This document shows positions 13,361 to 39,322 of a stretch of 64,000 nucleotides of DNA, piece by piece. Origin of the DNA: Ardenticatena sp. (GTDB taxonomy: Bacteria; Chloroflexota; Anaerolineae; Ardenticatenales; Ardenticatenaceae); contig WFOS01000050.1 in the NCBI GenBank assembly GCA_015487975.1, positions 1-64,000 of the forward strand. The letters run 5' to 3'. The notes below the pieces were generated by a model, which did not search any database, was not told where the DNA came from, and worked only from the letters and a program-made list of their open reading frames with translations. Positions within the stretch are counted from its first letter, which is position 1. The number at the start of each line of letters is the position of its first letter. Position numbers and translations under genes: made by a program.

Positions 13361-14233
13361 TTACCTGGAAAGAAGGGGGGGTCGATGCCGTCGAGCGAGC
13401 CAGCCACGTGCCGGGGCCAGCAAAAAGGCCAGGACAAAACAGGCAGTCGCCACCAGAACGATGGCTGCCCCAGATGCCATGTTGAAATAGAACGAGAGAT
13501 AGAGCCCCGCGACCGCCGAAAAGGCGCCAATCGCCGCTGCCACGCCAATTACTCGCGGTAAACGGTACGTAAGCAGGGTAGCTGTTGCGGGAGGCGTAAT
13601 CAGCATGGCAAGCAACAAGGCAACACCAACCGCCTCAATCGCTACGACGACGGTAATGGCAATGAGGAGCAACAGCAGGTAGTGCAGCCAGCGGGTTGGC
13701 AGGCGCAATGTTTCCGCCAGAACCGGGTCGAATGAGAGAAGCACGAATTCTTTGAAGAATGCAAACATCACAATCAGAACGCCACCACCAAACAGCCCCA
13801 CCATGACAACCTGGCGCATGGAAACGCCTAGCACGTTTCCAAAGAGAATATGTGCCAAATCCACAGCGTAATTGCCAGAAAGCGAAATGAGTGCAATGCC
13901 CAGGGCAAACATTCCCGCAAAAACGACGCCAATCGCTGTATCTTCGCGAATCTCGCCGCTTTCGGTGATGGCGCCAATACCGAGTGCAGCCACCACAGCG
14001 GAGCCAAGTGCCCACCAAAAAAGCCCATCGGTCAAGCCACCATGCACCAAATACCCAACGGCAATGCCGGGCAAAATGGTGTGCGCCAGCGCATCGCCAA
14101 AGAACGCCATCCCACGCAACACCACGAACGTTCCTACGATCGCAGCGACAACGCCAACCATGAGTGCGACGATCATGCCACGCACCATAAACGGGTACGC
14201 GAATGGCGTGGTCAACCACTCGATGAGATTCAT
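13361..14233 (-). CDS. znuB: Metal ABC transporter permease (ZnuB/MntB family)
   Basis: A 290-residue inner-membrane permease of the ABC-3 family with about eight or nine hydrophobic helices. Family landmarks are VLRGMAFFGDALAHTILPGIAVGYL near residue 38 and EAVGVALLLAMLITPPATA near residue 200. It is the last gene of the zur-znuA-znuC-znuB operon and overlaps znuC by 4 bp. The family imports Zn2+ or Mn2+. The His/acid-rich loop of the partner binding protein and the Zur-like regulator favour zinc. Confidence 0.92.
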   Translation of the reverse strand: MNLIEWLTTPFAYPFMVRGMIVALMVGVVAAIVGTFVVLRGMAFFGDALAHTILPGIAVGYLVHGGLTDGLFWWALGSAVVAALGIGAITESGEIREDTAIGVVFAGMFALGIALISLSGNYAVDLAHILFGNVLGVSMRQVVMVGLFGGGVLIVMFAFFKEFVLLSFDPVLAETLRLPTRWLHYLLLLLIAITVVVAIEAVGVALLLAMLITPPATATLLTYRLPRVIGVAAAIGAFSAVAGLYLSFYFNMASGAAIVLVATACFVLAFLLAPARGWLARRHRPPLLSR

Positions 14234-15057
14234 ACGTGCTCGCCTCCTTCACAACAGGTATCGCTGACCACCATCACACGCTCATCATCCGCCGGTACAA
14301 GGTGCAAATGAGGGCCATACGCCGCCGACAGCGTCCCTGGTGTCAGTACCAGACTCGGCACGCCGTAGGCAAGCAGCCGCCGATTGAGCACCATGACCAT
14401 GTCGAACATGGTGTTTGCCTGGTCGAGGTCGTGTGTGGCAACCAAAAGCGTCACCCCACGTTCGCGAAGCATATCCCAAATGCGAAAAACCGTGCGTTGT
14501 GAGGGCACATCCAGCCCGTTGAGCGGTTCATCCATCAGGACAATGCGAGCTTCCTGGGCAAGCGCACGCGCGATGAACATACGCTGCTGCTGACCGCCCG
14601 ACAATTGCCCAATCTGACGGTCTGCCAGGTGAAGCAAATCTACTTCGGCAAGCGCCAGCCGCACTGCTTCATGGTCTTCCCGACGTGGGCGGCGCAGCAG
14701 GCCAATGTGCGCTGTACGTCCCATCATCACAACATCGTACACGGTCAGCGGAAATCGCCAGTCCACGTCTTTGTGTTGCGGTACATAGGCAATATCGCGT
14801 GTGGCATGTGGGGGCTTCCCAAACAGACGAACTTCCCCCTCAGCGGGGATGATGAGCCCGGCAATCACTTTCAACAACGTAGATTTGCCCGCCCCATTGG
14901 GCCCCACAATCGCCACACGTGCCGCTGGCGCAATGGTGAATGAGACATCTTCCAGGGCAACACGTGTGCCATAATGGACACTGACATGCACCACTTCAAC
15001 CGCTGGCGTGGTTGATTGCGTATCCGCGCTGGGTTGTGGTTGAACCGCAAGGGACAT
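14230..15057 (-). CDS. znuC: Metal ABC transporter ATP-binding protein
   Basis: The ATPase that powers metal uptake. It has Walker A GPNGAGKS, the Q-loop YVPQ, the signature LSGGQQQR, Walker B IVLMDEP and the switch His in ATHD. I chose the ATG at 15057 because AAGGAG lies about 7 nt upstream. A GTG at 15075 overlapping the znuA stop is the alternative. The C-terminus is extended beyond the core and ends in SDTCCEGGEHV. This Cys-Cys/His tail is not part of the ABC fold and could bind metal. Confidence 0.93.
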   Translation of the reverse strand: MSLAVQPQPSADTQSTTPAVEVVHVSVHYGTRVALEDVSFTIAPAARVAIVGPNGAGKSTLLKVIAGLIIPAEGEVRLFGKPPHATRDIAYVPQHKDVDWRFPLTVYDVVMMGRTAHIGLLRRPRREDHEAVRLALAEVDLLHLADRQIGQLSGGQQQRMFIARALAQEARIVLMDEPLNGLDVPSQRTVFRIWDMLRERGVTLLVATHDLDQANTMFDMVMVLNRRLLAYGVPSLVLTPGTLSAAYGPHLHLVPADDERVMVVSDTCCEGGEHV

Positions 15058-30209: not shown

Positions 30210-31994
30210 CTACCTCTGCCACGTCTGGCATACTTTGTTGTTTTCCTCGTTGCTTTCCGCAATGTCATCGTAGGGATCAATCACCAGACAAATCGTGCAA
30301 TCAGGATCGTAGCAAGAGCCGTCCACAGGCGGCAACACAAATTCCCAAAAAAGGCCATTTGGGCTGGGCGGCAACTCCTCGATGATGGTGTCCAGGAAGG
30401 CATCAGGGTCTGCACTCGCCTGAACTTCGACGTCGTCCACACGTGTCGCGCCGGTGTTGTAAAGCAAGGCATACACCGTTATCTGGCATTGCTCTGGCTT
30501 TTCAGTACATGCCTCTTTGAAATCATCCACCCAAATAGCCAAATCGGGCAAGGAAGCCGGCGTGGGGGATGGTGTTGGCTCCACCAGAGGCAATGCATCT
30601 ATCTTGTATCCCACGCACGTCACATAGTCGGAGCTGCCAAACAGCCAGGCTTCTCTCTCTGTTTCAGTGGCAACAAGGAGCCAGCGGTCGCCAGAAAGAC
30701 GCCCCAATGGCGTAAATTTCGTCCCTGGAGACAACGTCGTGATCACGTCTGCCTCGAGGCTGGGAGCAGATCGTAAACGCAAAGCCACGCGCGTTTCGCA
30801 AAACGGTTGGACTTCGAGCGCTTCGGGGGCACGGGGTGGTGCCGGCTCACCATTTGGCAGCGGTGGTGTGATGCTAAATCCCAGGAAACACCCATCTTCC
30901 AAACGCAAGGTAGCATAGTGATAGGGTACAGGCGCTCGGCTGCTCAACACCTCGATTTCCCCCACCTGTGATTGCACGAACAGACGTTGAATTTCCTTAC
31001 GCGCGGGGTCGAACACGATGAGCATGCCTGTATCTGGGCCAGCTCTATTGAAGATCATCAGGTCCAGCGATTCCACACGTGCTAACACAGCGCGAAAATC
31101 GAAAAAGATCTCGCCCTTTTGCACGGCGATATCGGGGTTGCCGTCACGGTTGCAATCTTCAAGCGCATATCTCCCACCTTCGCCCAACATCAATCGTACA
31201 CCTTCGAGGATGAATGGGTCGCCCGGTGGGGGGAGCGTTTGTAACGGCGCCAGATTGCTGACGATATCGGCGAACGCCCAGACCACTTCGCCTACTTCAC
31301 GGACGGGTTGACCAGTCTGTGCGAGTTCAATCCAGCGTTGGACGGCTTGCATATCCGCCTGAATGCCAGGGCTTGGTTCATCCAGAGGCGCCACCCAACG
31401 TGCCATGCCCGCCGGCACCGGCTTCGTCACGCCATCTGCCATGATCGCCAGATCGTCCTCGGTAGCATCCAACCCAATGACCCACACCAACGGGGCTTCT
31501 TGTTCGCGCACCACCAAAAAGCGCGTGCCGGTGGCCTGTACCACAGCGATCTGCCCGTTGTCGAACGCGCTTTCTACCACAAGCAAGCGTTCTTGCAACG
31601 CAGCATCGGGATCGAAATCGAACAAGACGGCGCCAGCCACCAGCACAAAATTGGCAATCGCAGATCGCTCATCAGCAGAAAGTTGCTTGATATGGAGCTC
31701 GCCGTCGCGGGTAATATCGGCGGTAACCAAATCACCAAAACGCAGCAGGGCACGCCCTTGTTCGTCCACATCCACCCCTTCGCCCACCTGTACCGTTCTT
31801 GTTTGTTGTGCAGGAACAGGCGTGCGAGCAGTCGCACGTATCACAAATGCGTTGTCGAGCAGGGTTTCCAGGTTGGCCTGCCCTCCTTCTACGTTTCCAG
31901 CTGGTGTCTCGCGCATTGGCGTTTGCACACCTGTACCTTCCCCCCCACATGCAGAAAGCAGCATCATCAAAACGATCACCCACATCTTTCGCAT
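30210..31994 (-). CDS. Multi-domain lipoprotein (FecR-like, SH3b, CARDB-like)
   Basis: A 594-residue surface lipoprotein with lipobox LLSAC (Cys16). Residues about 45-170 contain a FecR-like beta segment (VQVGEGVDVDEQGRALLRFGD). Around 280-300 is an acidic DCNRDGNPDI motif of the calcium-loop type. Residues about 395-455 form an SH3b domain (VALRLRSAPSLEADVITTL). A Pro/Thr hinge leads to a C-terminal CARDB-like Ig fold (LPDLAIWVDDF, ending YDDIAESNEENN). The ATG at 31994 follows AAGGAG; a longer frame to 32069 overlaps the upstream gene. It lies 22 bp after the SIR2-STAND gene and is probably the third gene of that operon. Its role is unknown. Confidence 0.8.
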   Translation of the reverse strand: MRKMWVIVLMMLLSACGGEGTGVQTPMRETPAGNVEGGQANLETLLDNAFVIRATARTPVPAQQTRTVQVGEGVDVDEQGRALLRFGDLVTADITRDGELHIKQLSADERSAIANFVLVAGAVLFDFDPDAALQERLLVVESAFDNGQIAVVQATGTRFLVVREQEAPLVWVIGLDATEDDLAIMADGVTKPVPAGMARWVAPLDEPSPGIQADMQAVQRWIELAQTGQPVREVGEVVWAFADIVSNLAPLQTLPPPGDPFILEGVRLMLGEGGRYALEDCNRDGNPDIAVQKGEIFFDFRAVLARVESLDLMIFNRAGPDTGMLIVFDPARKEIQRLFVQSQVGEIEVLSSRAPVPYHYATLRLEDGCFLGFSITPPLPNGEPAPPRAPEALEVQPFCETRVALRLRSAPSLEADVITTLSPGTKFTPLGRLSGDRWLLVATETEREAWLFGSSDYVTCVGYKIDALPLVEPTPSPTPASLPDLAIWVDDFKEACTEKPEQCQITVYALLYNTGATRVDDVEVQASADPDAFLDTIIEELPPSPNGLFWEFVLPPVDGSCYDPDCTICLVIDPYDDIAESNEENNKVCQTWQR

Positions 31995-32016: not shown

Positions 32017-34824
32017 TCAGCGCAATACCAGCCACACAAGCCACAACGCGAGCGCACCACAGAGACCATACAAGGTCAGCATCACTGCACGTGCTCGCTG
32101 CGCCCACGCGCCATCACCCAACTCGCGCATCAACACCCCCACGAAACGCGGCAGAGCCCCCGCAAGAGCGCCCAACATGCCGCCCACCAGCAAACCGACG
32201 AACGCCGTTGCCAGCAATGTCCCGCCCTGCACACCCTGCTGCGCCATCGAAAACATGGTCAGCATACCTATCAACACGCCCCCCACGAGCGCTCCCCAGC
32301 GTGCCGCATGCAAGGTTTGGGCGGCGATGAAATCACGCCGTCGCGTCCAGCGCCGCTGCCAGACAGCACGCCGCACGCGGGCACGCATGGCCGCAGGCAA
32401 TAGCGGTTCTACCAGCGGTTGCATGTCGCGCAGCTGGTAGATAGCCGCGTCGGCATATGGATGATTGGCCTGCGATGCACCTACCAGGGGCGTAACTGCT
32501 TGTTGGAGCAAGGGGGGCGGAAGTGTGGCAATGGCTTGGACGGCCGCTTGGCGCACCTCCGCATTAGGGTCGTCAAGTGCCAGGCGGGGCAAATGGGTTG
32601 TGTACGTCTCAACAGCCAGACGTGCCACTGCCAGTGCAGCGCGTGCACGCACAAAGGGTTCGGCATGTTCCAATAAACGCACCAAGACCGCCCCTTGCAC
32701 ATCGGGCGGCAATCTGTCGGCTGGCGGTTCGCCGTAGGCAATCGCACTGGCAAAACAGAGCGTCTGCTCATCGGGGCTAAACCGCAAACGTGTGCGGTGG
32801 CGTTCGATGAGCGCCAAATCGTCCGGGGGAAGTAGCCGTCCACGGTCGCGCCACTCACGAACAGCAGTGCGCAAAATCTCGCGGGCTTTTTGCGCTGCCC
32901 AAAACGCTTCACCGAGCCAGCGGGTAATATGGGCCGCCAGGTAGTCGTGCGTCAATTCGTACTGAACGCCTGTGGGCGTCTCGTAGCGTCGAACCAGACG
33001 CAGCGCCACAAGCTGCTCAAGCAGGCGCGTGGCATCATCCACTGTCATGTCGGCGGCACGTGCCAGGTCATCGAGTGCCACACGCGCTTTGAGACCACTG
33101 CTTCCCACCAGCAAGCCCAACAACGTGCGCACTTGGGGCTGTTCTGCTGTGGGAAAGGTCGCAATGGCATCATCCAGATAGTGTCCAAGCAGGGCGCCAG
33201 TGCCACCCAGCGCTTCCAAGTCATCCACATTCAGGGTAGTGCGCCCTTGGGCTTCAACCACTGCACGGTAGAGGGCATCGGCCACAATTTGCAGGTGCGG
33301 TGGCGCGACGCGGCCATTTTCATCCGTCAGGTCGTCGAGGAGCCGTTCCAAGAGCGCTGGCTTCCACGTCACACCAAACAGGGCAGCCGGTTCTTCCAGC
33401 GCCAAACGGGCGGTTTCGCGGTTGAGCGGGGTGAGATAAAAGCGCACATCCAGCAATGTGGGAAAAGCCTCTCGCCAGGCATCGAGGTGTCCCACAAACT
33501 CTTCACGCAACACGAAAACCAAGCGCAGGTCCAACGTGCGGTCTGCCACCAGGGTCATCACATCAGCCAACTGGGCAGGCTGTTCAGCCGCCGGTACGTG
33601 CGCAAAAAACTGCTCGAACTGGTCCAAGACCAGCACCACAGGCCCTTCAAGCGCCTGTTGCAGGCGCCGAACAAGCGCTGCCAGGTCATCTGTGTCGGTA
33701 AAAGGCACGTCGAGGGTGGTCGCTTCTTGCCGCAAGGCCGCCCCCAGCACCTGCGTGAGCGAGTGTGTGGGATAAGGTGTGGCGGCAACCAAGAGCGCCC
33801 GCAAGGCGGCCAACCGTGGCGCAACGCCCGCCATGAGCAAGCTGGTTTTGCCACTGCCCGAACTGCCATAGAGCACGACATGCCGCCGCGCCAGAATGCG
33901 ATGCGTCAGGCGGCGGCTCTCTTCCTGCCGCCCAGCAAAAATGGCGGCATCGTTCTGGCTAAAACTATCCAGGGCTTTGTAGGGGCGTTCGGGGCGCACA
34001 AGTGGAATACGGCTTTCCAGCGGATTGGGGGATGGTTCGACAGGCTGGGCTTGCAAACGTTTCACCGTCGAGGTCAGGCGCTCGAAGAAGGTCTGCAAGT
34101 CGGTTTCGACCAGCATGACGTTGCGCCGCTGCCAGTAGGCCACTTCGTTTTCAGCAGGCAAGCGGGGCACCAGGGCGAAGGCGGGACGCCGAAACTGCCC
34201 TACGAGGTCTTCGATCTGGTCGAACATGTCGCGCACGATGGGGTGTTCGAGATTGTATCCCACAAACAGGAGCGTTTTGGTAGCGAAATAGGCACGCACC
34301 ACATCATGCAAGGCGCTCATCGTGCGCAAGAAGCGGCGCACGTCATCGTCGGTGATACAGAGGTGATCGGGGTCTTCGATATCACCCTGCAATTTGATGA
34401 TGGCAATGCGCGATTCATCGAAGAAAGGCAAATCAGTGTCGCGGCGAATGCGCACATAGGCTTTCCCAAATTGGTCGAGAGCAGTTTCCAACACACGGTC
34501 GAAGCGCGTCGTCACAACTTTGGCAAAGGGGGGCAAGGCGTCGGCCAACAACTGGTGCACAGCAGCGGGGTGGGGCGTGAGCGTTTGCAAGGCATCGCGC
34601 AAGGCACTGAGCAGGGCAGCACGCCCAATTTGCACTTCTACGTCGCGTGCCACCAGGCTCAACGGGCGGTCTGGTGGGCCGATGGCGAACGTTTGCGCCA
34701 GGTATGCAGCGATCTGTTGATCGAGGGCATGTTTGCCTTGTCCATGCAAGCCCGTGCCAACAACGAAGACCACATTGTCTTGCCACAAAAGCGTGGCCAG
34801 TTGGTCAATCAACGGACTCGTCAT
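32017..34824 (-). CDS. SIR2-like / STAND NTPase / HEAT-repeat membrane protein
   Basis: A 935-residue NLR-like protein. Residues about 15-250 are a SIR2-like Rossmann domain (VVGTGLHG; TTRFDRVLE; KLQGDIEDP). Residues about 285-560 are a novel-STAND ATPase with Walker A GSSGSGKTS (320-328) and Walker B VVLVLDQFEQFF (from 396). A winged-helix region and HEAT-like repeats follow (about 640-800). At least three membrane helices occupy about 845-935. In the SIR2 domain the catalytic His of the usual LHG motif is Gln (LQG) and the Asn of TTN is Arg, so NAD+ cleavage is doubtful. STAND proteins oligomerise on sensing a signal. A 4-bp overlap couples it to the CHAT gene upstream. Confidence 0.85.
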   Translation of the reverse strand: MTSPLIDQLATLLWQDNVVFVVGTGLHGQGKHALDQQIAAYLAQTFAIGPPDRPLSLVARDVEVQIGRAALLSALRDALQTLTPHPAAVHQLLADALPPFAKVVTTRFDRVLETALDQFGKAYVRIRRDTDLPFFDESRIAIIKLQGDIEDPDHLCITDDDVRRFLRTMSALHDVVRAYFATKTLLFVGYNLEHPIVRDMFDQIEDLVGQFRRPAFALVPRLPAENEVAYWQRRNVMLVETDLQTFFERLTSTVKRLQAQPVEPSPNPLESRIPLVRPERPYKALDSFSQNDAAIFAGRQEESRRLTHRILARRHVVLYGSSGSGKTSLLMAGVAPRLAALRALLVAATPYPTHSLTQVLGAALRQEATTLDVPFTDTDDLAALVRRLQQALEGPVVLVLDQFEQFFAHVPAAEQPAQLADVMTLVADRTLDLRLVFVLREEFVGHLDAWREAFPTLLDVRFYLTPLNRETARLALEEPAALFGVTWKPALLERLLDDLTDENGRVAPPHLQIVADALYRAVVEAQGRTTLNVDDLEALGGTGALLGHYLDDAIATFPTAEQPQVRTLLGLLVGSSGLKARVALDDLARAADMTVDDATRLLEQLVALRLVRRYETPTGVQYELTHDYLAAHITRWLGEAFWAAQKAREILRTAVREWRDRGRLLPPDDLALIERHRTRLRFSPDEQTLCFASAIAYGEPPADRLPPDVQGAVLVRLLEHAEPFVRARAALAVARLAVETYTTHLPRLALDDPNAEVRQAAVQAIATLPPPLLQQAVTPLVGASQANHPYADAAIYQLRDMQPLVEPLLPAAMRARVRRAVWQRRWTRRRDFIAAQTLHAARWGALVGGVLIGMLTMFSMAQQGVQGGTLLATAFVGLLVGGMLGALAGALPRFVGVLMRELGDGAWAQRARAVMLTLYGLCGALALWLVWLVLR

Positions 34825-36872
34825 CTGGATTCCCTCTGCAAACGGCGCAGCAAGGCAATAGGATCGGTCTCCAAGACATGCAAATGGCGGTTGCTCGCCA
34901 ACGATTGGAGAGCGGCTGATGACAACGATGGCCAGACTGCAAACGCAGGTCGCCGAAAACGTGTCCCCGCGACTTCATCCAAAAGCGCTAGCCAGAAGGA
35001 ATCTGTGGGGAGAAGCCCCACGGTCAGCACATCGTTGCGTTTGAGAAGCCGCCCTACTTCGTCGAGCACGTCGGGTTTGTTGCGGCCACGGATGAGCGCG
35101 TTGAGGTCTTGTTCGGTCACAAGGAGCGTTTCAGGGCGGTCGATCGTGCCAAGCAGGTGATAGAGTGTAGGGCGGTCGGGGTTGGCAAAGGTGAGGGTCG
35201 TATCATCCACAACCACATTGCACGCCACGCCGCGCGCCTGCACAGCCCGCTGCAAGGCCAGGTCGTAGGTGAACGTCACCAGATGACGCACCCGTCCACG
35301 TGCTATCAGGTCGGCAATAGCGGCATAGAGGGGCGCCGGCGGCACTGGTACAGCCGAAAGGGCATCGATGAGAAATTCGGTGAAGGCAAAGCGGTTCTGG
35401 TTCTGCATCACTTGCTGGGCAACCGTGGCAAGCGAGTCCTCAGGCGGTAGGCCATACTGGGCTGCTAGTGCCCGTGCCAGGTCAACACGCGATGGTATGC
35501 CCGTCAAGATGGTGGGTGCATCTCCACCGACGACAAGCACCAATCGTCCACGCTGGGCTGCCATTTGCAGACGAAGCCAGTGGCGTTGTGCCACATTGGC
35601 CATGTCAGGCGAGGTTGGCGGCGTGGGTGGGGTGGTGTGGGTCATGATGGTGTTCTGATTGCCGATGTTGATGACACTCCCCATAACGCTACCCTGGATC
35701 ACGACAGAAGGGTCAGCTGGTGTACGTGTGGTATCCGTCGTCACTTCCTCGGTTGCATTTTCAATCCCAAACAAGCGTCCGTCGCTATCACGCATGAAAA
35801 GCACCGGCGTTGCCCATTCGAGCGGATTGCCATCGACCACGTAGATGGCCTTTCGGGCTTCGGCGAGCGCGTGGTCTACTTGCCCTGTATCCACCAGTGC
35901 CGTGTAGAATGCACGAGCAAACGTCAGCGCTGCGGCGTCAGTAATGGCAAATTGCATGGCAATCACCGCCGGCACACCACGTCGTACAAGTTGTTGCGCC
36001 ACGCCTGCGAACAGATTGGCATCAGCAGTTTGTGCGCCACGGCATGCATTGAGCACCACCAGCCGCAACGCGTCGAGTTCGTCCCCCAGCAGGACCGTCA
36101 GGCGTTCGGCGTTGAGCGGACGTGCTTCACCCTGCTCATCCTCGAAGAGCAACACCCCATGCGCCCCGTCGAAATTACCATGCCCGATGAAGTGGATAAT
36201 GTGATAGCTTCCATGCCGCAACGCTGCTTGCAGTGCGGCAGGGGTAGGTGGCATCAACTGCTCGAGCACCAACCGTCCATGTTCAACCAGTGGGGCAAGT
36301 GCTGTGCGAATGTCGTGCCACTCGCGTTCCACATCCAGCGGGGGCGTGCCGCGAGGAGCAGCAATGATGACCAACATGCGCACTGTCTCATCCACACGAG
36401 TGGCGTGCACAGCTTGGGGAATATTCAAATAGCGCACCAGTGGCGTGTATGTCGAAACGGCAAGGAACGCGCCTTGCTGTGGGTCATAGAGCAATTCCCA
36501 CGGCAACGCATGGAGAGAAGGGGTCTCCAAGCGCAAGCGCACCCGGATGCCCTGCTCATTGCGGCGGGCAGCATCCAGGCTACGCCGCCACAACGTCGCC
36601 ACATCGCCGCTAAATACCACATCGAAGAGCCGTTCCCCAACCTTGCGCACAATCGTTTCCGGCGACACGTCTGCCGAGGCTGTGGGGGTGAGGATCAGCC
36701 CGCGCTGGGGACGGCCGATTTCTTGCAGTAGCACGTCTGGCGCAAACACCTCGCGGGGCATGGGAGCGGAAGCACGTGCTTCCCCAACAGGCGAATCAAG
36801 CACTCGCGTATCCAGCGTTTCGCCCTCAGTGGTCAGCAGTAAATCGAAATTCATGAACGATTGCGCTGGCAT
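34821..36872 (-). CDS. CHAT protease fused to a SIR2-like domain
   Basis: A 683-residue protein, first of the operon. Residues about 100-370 are a CHAT (caspase-HetF-associated) cysteine-protease domain with an intact dyad: His231 in HFIGHGNFDG and Cys277 in LVVLNACRGA. The conserved PWELLYD precedes them. A linker (about 390-412) has short beta-like repeats (VVIQGSVMGSVINIGNQNT). Residues about 440-670 form a second SIR2-like domain in which TTN is TFT and the catalytic His of LHG is Leu (LLG), so it is probably not an active NADase. The ATG at 36872 has GGAG 7 nt upstream. CHAT proteases act in bacterial defence and cell-death modules; the substrate here is unknown. Confidence 0.88.
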   Translation of the reverse strand: MPAQSFMNFDLLLTTEGETLDTRVLDSPVGEARASAPMPREVFAPDVLLQEIGRPQRGLILTPTASADVSPETIVRKVGERLFDVVFSGDVATLWRRSLDAARRNEQGIRVRLRLETPSLHALPWELLYDPQQGAFLAVSTYTPLVRYLNIPQAVHATRVDETVRMLVIIAAPRGTPPLDVEREWHDIRTALAPLVEHGRLVLEQLMPPTPAALQAALRHGSYHIIHFIGHGNFDGAHGVLLFEDEQGEARPLNAERLTVLLGDELDALRLVVLNACRGAQTADANLFAGVAQQLVRRGVPAVIAMQFAITDAAALTFARAFYTALVDTGQVDHALAEARKAIYVVDGNPLEWATPVLFMRDSDGRLFGIENATEEVTTDTTRTPADPSVVIQGSVMGSVINIGNQNTIMTHTTPPTPPTSPDMANVAQRHWLRLQMAAQRGRLVLVVGGDAPTILTGIPSRVDLARALAAQYGLPPEDSLATVAQQVMQNQNRFAFTEFLIDALSAVPVPPAPLYAAIADLIARGRVRHLVTFTYDLALQRAVQARGVACNVVVDDTTLTFANPDRPTLYHLLGTIDRPETLLVTEQDLNALIRGRNKPDVLDEVGRLLKRNDVLTVGLLPTDSFWLALLDEVAGTRFRRPAFAVWPSLSSAALQSLASNRHLHVLETDPIALLRRLQRESR

Positions 36873-38828: not shown

Positions 38829-38881
38829 CCCGCGCTGTCAAGAGAGGATGGAACGTACATTCAAAAAGCAAAACATCACAT

Positions 38882-38964
38882 GGGGGCGCGCCGGAGTTGG
38901 AGAGCCGGGGCGGACTGTAAATCCGTTGGCACAGCCTGAGGGGGTTCGAATCCCTCCGCCCCCA
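38882..38964 (+). tRNA. tRNA-Tyr (anticodon GTA)
   Basis: Acceptor arms GGGGGCG and CGCCCCC pair fully. The anticodon loop is CTGTAAA. The long class II variable arm is typical of bacterial tRNA-Tyr. The discriminator is A and CCA is not encoded. It is first of five tandem tRNA genes. Confidence 0.96.
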
Positions 38965-38978
38965 TTGCGCACGGTTGT

Positions 38979-39051
38979 GGCCGCGTAGCTCAATTGGGAG
39001 AGCAGCTGACTCTTAATCAGCGGGTTGGGGGTTCGAGTCCCTCCGCGGTCA
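38979..39051 (+). tRNA. tRNA-Lys (anticodon CTT)
   Basis: Acceptor GGCCGCG pairs with CGCGGTC (one G-U). The anticodon stem GCTGA/TCAGC carries loop CTCTTAA. The T-loop is GTTCGAGTC. CCA is not encoded. Confidence 0.95.
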
Positions 39052-39068
39052 TTCGCCGGAATGTTCAT

Positions 39069-39141
39069 GTCCGCGTAGCTCAGTGGATAGAGCGCAGCCC
39101 TGCGGAGGCTGAGGTCGGAGGTTCGAATCCTCCCGCGGACG
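39069..39141 (+). tRNA. tRNA-Arg (anticodon GCG)
   Basis: Acceptor GTCCGCG/CGCGGAC is present. The anticodon stem CAGCC/GGCTG holds loop CTGCGGA, giving GCG, which reads CGC. T-stem GGAGG/CCTCC. Discriminator G, CCA not encoded. Many bacteria use ACG (inosine-modified) for CGN codons, so a GCG isoacceptor is worth noting. Confidence 0.93.
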
Positions 39142-39150
39142 CTCTGGTGT

Positions 39151-39233
39151 GCCGGGGTGGCGAAATTGGCAAACGCGCACGACTCAAAATCGTGTGGACT
39201 ACGTCCTTGTGGGTTCGAGTCCCACCCCCGGCA
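39151..39233 (+). tRNA. tRNA-Leu (anticodon CAA)
   Basis: Acceptor GCCGGGG/CCCCGGC is present. Anticodon stem CACGA/TCGTG with loop CTCAAAA. Long variable arm as for class II leucine tRNAs. CCA is not encoded. Confidence 0.95.
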
Positions 39234-39245
39234 TATGGAGCATAC

Positions 39246-39322
39246 GGGCGCGTAGCTCAGCTGGTTAGAGCGTCCGGCTCACATCCGGGAGGTCAGAGGT
39301 TCAAGTCCTCTCGCGCCCACCA
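39246..39322 (+). tRNA. tRNA-Val (anticodon CAC)
   Basis: Acceptor GGGCGCG/CGCGCCC is present. Anticodon stem TCCGG/CCGGG with loop CTCACAT. This is the only tRNA of the window with the 3' ACCA encoded. It is last in the array. Confidence 0.95.

Follow-up and report, generated by a model that had tools for sequence, protein, structure and literature searches.

Results

The window analysed here, a stretch of 64,000 nucleotides from Ardenticatena sp., carries three adjacent genes on its minus strand. Gene A (34821..36872) encodes a protein of 683 aa in which open reading frame and Pfam analysis places a CHAT protease before a degenerate SIR2_2 domain. Gene B (32017..34824), defined by its ORF, Pfam and an AF2 model, encodes 935 aa comprising a degenerate SIR2_2 domain, an nSTAND1 ATPase, HEAT-like repeats and C-terminal membrane helices. 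Gene C (30210..31994) encodes a lipoprotein of 594 aa (lipobox MRKMWVIVLMMLLSACGG) with FecR-like, SH3_3 and CARDB regions. The stop codon of A and the start codon of B overlap by 4 bp as ATGA, with bases 34821-34824 in common, and the ribosome site of B (AGGGA) is located within A; C begins at 31994, preceded by AGGAG and separated from B by 22 nt. The preliminary description of this locus had reported the two overlapping genes, and the ORFs agree with it, but it had taken the pair as the whole unit, and this view has to be widened to include gene C, the most constant neighbour of B.

The operon is flanked by speA and gyrB on one side and by a glutamine-amidotransferase gene, murI and five tRNA genes on the other, with cell-wall genes further out. 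This gene order is identical in the two species of the genus, and in the second genome (G001) the whole operon lies at the equivalent chromosomal place, with A, B and C 73%, 75% and 68% identical, respectively, to those of the window. The range of 68-75% for these three genes, compared with 84-97% for their neighbours, shows that A, B and C evolve faster; such divergence is common for conflict genes but is no proof of that kind of role. The tRNA genes form a cluster at 38881-39322. A scan of the neighbours showed no defence genes, and the housekeeping flanks and the synteny with G001 set the locus apart from mobile defence islands, which have defence or mobile genes as neighbours; defence systems are not usually found in such surroundings. 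Close relatives of the operon proteins are absent from phage and plasmid records. A mobile or phage-borne element was rejected, the best phage match covering 24% of B at 28% identity and no plasmid record covering most of A. No gasdermin was identified within the three-gene operon, and a search of the window's own genome for EAD1 gave no matches, with none in the control genomes either, which makes the control uninformative.

The CHAT domain of A (PF12770, residues 93-358, E 2e-35) occupies 35799..36596. Its catalytic dyad, His231 (36180-36182) and Cys277 (36042-36044), lies in HG and NAC motifs that are intact in 27 of 27 aligned CHAT rows, that is, A and 26 others; the dyad named in the preliminary description is therefore present, and its loss in homologues, which that description had proposed to look for, is nowhere seen in the alignment. 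In the CHAT tree the CHAT domain of the window and those of Caldilineaceae type fall into separate starred groups, with the deep forks open. The linker that follows contains a beta-type motif, VIQGSVMGSVINIGNQNTI, at approximately 35637..35705 on the minus strand; it is kept in the genus and resembles short beta or amyloid-type signalling motifs. The SIR2_2 domain of A (34881..35285; residues 530-662, E 2e-9) folds with confidence when modelled alone by AF2 (mean pLDDT 87.7, pTM 0.87), and Foldseek matches the model to ThsA and DSR2 (TM about 0.77) and also to the SIR2 domain of KomC.

In B, the SIR2_2 domain (34117..34518; residues 103-236, E 7e-23) precedes the nSTAND1 ATPase (32836..33984; residues 281-663, E 3e-52), which has a Walker A motif GSSGSGKTS and a Walker B motif LDQFE. 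Residues G320, G323, G325, K326, S328, D401 and E404 of these motifs are invariant across 18 homologues, and with both motifs intact B qualifies as an NLR-like STAND protein. Pfam detects HEAT repeats, and the C-terminal membrane helices (32020..32298, about residues 843-935) are predicted both by a hydropathy scan, which places hydrophobic helices at about 843-861, 867-892 and 912-935, and by AF2, which places helices at 811-862, 867-902 and 905-934. The architecture first proposed for B thus stands in every part. The AF2 model of full-length B (mean pLDDT 86, pTM 0.69) finds its best Foldseek PDB match in the SIR2-STAND protein EfAvs5 (9jap, E 7e-15), with a different domain placement (TM 0.25).

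Gene C is matched by SH3_3 and CARDB and, weakly, by FecR (E 0.013 in the window); two of its homologues score 22.9 and 24.3 bits against the FecR profile, for which the cut-off is 24. Of 60 relatives, six have B, and the FecR-like part of C was found in these alone (Fisher p=2e-8). In 20 of 20 distinct B-family loci with flanking sequence on the relevant side, B is succeeded by between one and three C genes; the named sources of these loci are Caldilineaceae, Caldilineales, Anaerolineales and Litorilinea MAGs, and in one of the B-family genomes (G024) a single intervening gene separates the two. As C homologues lie 3' of B in all 20 loci, C is the most constant partner of B. A C-family gene at locus L106 (9963-11423) has FHA domains, unexpected for a secreted lipoprotein family; these domains are usually cytoplasmic, which makes it less than certain that every C faces outward. 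A further locus, L160 (G393:C365, 108-6984), has two FecR-like C genes followed by a gene for a degenerate SIR2 domain joined to CHAT; it lies near the start of its contig, so that its B may be situated beyond the contig end.

Catalysis by SIR2 domains of this group relies on an Asn, in the motif TTNYD, and a His, in the motif K-x-HGD. In A the Asn is replaced by Thr (VTFTYD) and the His by Leu (YHLLGT), and in B the replacements are R107 (TTRFD) and Q146 (KLQGD); the PDB match to KomC aligns Gln146 of B with His146 of KomC, the KomC H146N mutant being a separate PDB chain. These two SIR2_2 domains are the only ones in their genome. Both catalytic residues are lost in 17 of 19 class-level B rows, the other two (G091 and G064) keeping the Asn with Gln in place of His, and both are absent from the B rows from outside the class (L171 and L172). 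The replacements in B are conserved, with TTRFD and K-x-QGD shared by most of the B proteins, which are about 40% identical. In the family of the SIR2 domain of A, here called D and searched with a profile built from that domain and its relatives, 14 of 15 dead rows lack both residues and L160 alone retains only the His; here the replacements are variable (T/A/R with Y/L/F/W). A second SIR2 gene near the B-C operon of G091 (L104, G091:C18, about 13900-14930) has both residues intact (TTNWD, KLHGS), and an NADase branch of the system may therefore exist.

In PaAvs5 the N110A mutation, which changes the catalytic Asn, abolishes defence, and its Asn153, at the position equivalent to the His, is active in the native protein, with replacement by Ala or Gln again abolishing defence (PMC12931631). 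Loss of the His alone would therefore not prove inactivity; it is the loss of both residues, with Gln at the second position in B, that makes NADase activity unlikely. Judged by these residues neither the SIR2 domain of A nor that of B should be an NADase. A reading of SIR2 as an NADase effector was accordingly rejected, the catalytic residues being gone from both partners and from nearly all homologues.

Matches to D at E below 1e-50 were found in 13 of 396 genomes of the class. In the SIR2 tree 13 D rows, A included, form one clade (97/99) and 17 B rows form another (100/99), and the SIR2 domain of A is therefore no recent copy of that of B; a recent duplication was rejected on this ground. 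Two divergent SIR2 genes, those of G024 and G038, lie outside the D clade. CHAT and caspase are both clan CD proteases, and it is mainly to this clan that D is fused: as CHAT-SIR2 in the genus of the window, as SIR2-CHAT at seven loci (L117, L125, L156, L158, L159, L160 and L172), as SIR2-bDLD1-caspase at L043 and as SIR2-caspase at L177. One member (L098) is an EAD1-SIR2 fusion, and no recognised effector was found in the D members at L106, L157 and L044, the last having a weak DUF7363 match. As the domain order differs, the combination of CHAT and SIR2 probably arose more than once.

The families B and D co-occur in the same genomes far above chance, as the preliminary description had proposed to check. 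Near-full-length B is present in 15 of the 396 class genomes, D in 13 and both in 9 (p=6e-12); leaving out the genus of the window, seven genomes have both (p=2e-9), and at genus level, among 222 genera, 10 have B, 9 have D and 6 have both (p=1e-7). A sample of 400 genomes from the phylum contained B in 5, D in 6 and both in 5 (p=7e-11), three of the latter five being also in the class sample. All of these p-values overstate significance, as some of these genomes contributed to the D profile and related genomes do not count as independent observations, and the genome sets are drawn samples that include many MAGs. Both genes lie in one operon in the window, in G001 and at L117, L125, L098, L106 and L172. 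D is nevertheless not obligatory for B, since a strict D relative is missing from four genomes with B (G026, G239, G352 and G064), of which some are incomplete MAGs. With weaker matches included the wider distribution is patchy, at 32 of 396 genomes. The locus from outside the class, L172 (G725:C158, 5214-11030), encodes a degenerate SIR2 domain joined to nSTAND1 and Hsp70, followed by a degenerate SIR2 domain joined to CHAT, which suggests the same pairing as in A and B with another accessory part; its Hsp70 part is broken by a stop in that assembly and no FecR gene was found at the locus. CHAT and nSTAND1 are also found in a single chain, at L185 (G612:C111, 8189-11560) and at G003:C1054 (1154-3532), and the simplest reading of these chains beside the split pair is that some lineages join the two parts covalently and others through two SIR2 folds.

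Discussion

The genomic evidence, consisting of the operon itself, the co-occurrence of B and D, and the single chains of CHAT and nSTAND1, links an NLR-like STAND protein to a protease effector at the level of the genes, and the conserved pairing upholds the original proposal of a STAND and protease module. Among the systems of PADLOC and NCBIfam none matches it over its whole extent, and the preliminary description had likewise been unable to match it to a named system. In fold, as far as the models indicate, the operon is nearest to Avs5, in which an N-terminal SIR2 fold likewise precedes a STAND ATPase and helical repeats at the C-terminus. B has the same order, SIR2 being N-terminal to the ATPase, but differs in having lost the SIR2 active site, where a competent SIR2 domain of Avs5 would have Asn and either His or Asn at the second position and B has R107 and Q146, and in having C-terminal membrane helices, a FecR-like lipoprotein neighbour and a separate protease partner. 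PADLOC matched no Avs model on the operon and gave only partial ThsA, Dsr and other SIR2 matches, and a simple member of Avs5 was rejected on both counts. Thoeris ThsA, DSR1/DSR2 and KomC have the SIR2 fold in common with A and B, but their catalytic Asn and His are present.

Conflict systems with STAND or EAD components and CHAT or caspase effectors combine a STAND switch, a clan-CD protease and an adaptor domain shared between partners (PMC7159879, 2020; PMC8195603, 2021; Kaur). The likeness extends to one D homologue that carries EAD1 and another that carries bDLD1 and caspase. In the operon, however, the putative shared adaptor is the dead SIR2 domain in both A and B rather than a small EAD or death-like domain, EAD1 itself being confined to the one D homologue, and MoxR-vWA parts are absent. 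An active CHAT protease also serves as the effector in SAVED-CHAT, in the TPR-CHAT of Craspase and in CHAT systems with bacterial gasdermins, but the operon has no SAVED, CRISPR or TPR part, and the SAVED_CHAT profile gave only a partial match over the CHAT domain of A. A precedent for two different SIR2 proteins as partners is provided by the vertebrate sirtuins FAM118A and FAM118B, paralogues that work only together, via SIR2-SIR2 contacts, although theirs is an active NAD-processing assembly and the active sites of A and B are lost (PMC12700824).

We propose, with the chances in our judgement evenly balanced, that A, B and C constitute one operon in which a membrane-anchored NLR-like STAND switch docks a CHAT protease through non-catalytic contact between SIR2 domains. 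B would be the switch, anchored in the membrane through its C-terminal helices, its nSTAND1 ATPase changing state on a signal and assembling; the signal could be relayed by the outward-facing lipoprotein C, a candidate input at the outer face of the membrane. The N-terminal SIR2-like domain of B would then act as a docking or oligomerisation surface and not as an enzyme. A would be the effector, its SIR2-like domain binding, or co-assembling with, that of B, and this contact would gather and activate the CHAT protease by proximity, so that it could cleave one or more cytoplasmic targets. A dead NADase fold would thus play the role that death, CARD or EAD adaptor domains play elsewhere. The pairing function suggested for the shared SIR2 fold in the preliminary description is plausible. 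That two SIR2 families have been retained without catalysis, and occur in pairs and in new combinations with proteases, argues that the fold can be an interaction module. The folds of EfAvs5, ThsA and DSR2 work as oligomers, and the resemblance of the predicted structures of B and A to these would favour docking.

The main rival for the role of the SIR2 domains, which we regard as unlikely, is that they are ligand sensors, in whose altered pockets NAD+, ADP-ribose or a related nucleotide would be bound but left uncleaved, the binding gating the STAND protein and the protease. The Arg and Gln of B are conserved and not drifting, as would be expected too if a ligand pocket had been retained, and the SIR2 domains of both A and B are predicted to fold like those of ThsA and DSR2. 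The replacements in D are, however, different and variable, and describe no single new pocket, and the presence of the domain in both partners is better explained by docking.

For the purpose of the operon the main rival, to which we assign a similarly low probability, is signalling of envelope state or stress rather than immunity, with C and B reporting on the envelope and A cleaving a regulator. Such a function would fit the constancy of the B-C linkage, the confinement of the FecR-like part of C to genomes with B, and a chromosomal locus syntenic in the genus among housekeeping genes. Against it, known conflict systems include STAND proteins partnered by CHAT or caspase, by bDLD1 and by EAD1 (PMC8195603, PMC7159879), and both the faster divergence of A, B and C and the patchy distribution of the system are unlike a function of this kind. 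Defence or cell death, reached by docking of A to B, would be the outcome under our own proposal; this part of the preliminary description is unproven, as no defence island surrounds the locus, which has housekeeping flanks in both species of the genus.

It is very improbable that the SIR2 domains are still NADases with unusual residues, giving the system two effectors, NAD+ depletion and proteolysis. The activity of PaAvs5 with Asn for the canonical His would allow some latitude at that position, and the second SIR2 of G091 looks intact; in A and B the Asn is gone too, PaAvs5 no longer defends when its Asn is changed or when Gln occupies the position equivalent to the His (PMC12931631), and, the SIR2 gene of G091 apart, every D protein lacks at least one catalytic residue. 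That A and B adjoin by chance, in a phylum rich in CHAT, SIR2 and STAND genes that shuffle fast, is hardly credible given that separate lineages, with differing domain orders, repeatedly show the two in the same genome and in one operon.

Beyond this operon, we suggest tentatively, at somewhat less than even confidence, that degenerate SIR2 serves across the Chloroflexota as a dedicated adaptor linking membrane STAND switches to CHAT or caspase, the outward input being a FecR-like lipoprotein. The arrangement would resemble a transmembrane inflammasome, and we found no description of a SIR2/CHAT/STAND or FecR/STAND system in the open-access literature searched. Bacterial SIR2 domains of immune type are usually read as NAD+-depleting effectors, and the operon is a warning against labelling every SIR2-STAND gene as an NADase defence system. 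If the proposal is true, degenerate SIR2 would be a new class of adaptor in the prokaryotic counterpart of apoptosis signalling, in a three-gene system that is directly testable and that may have an extracytoplasmic input.
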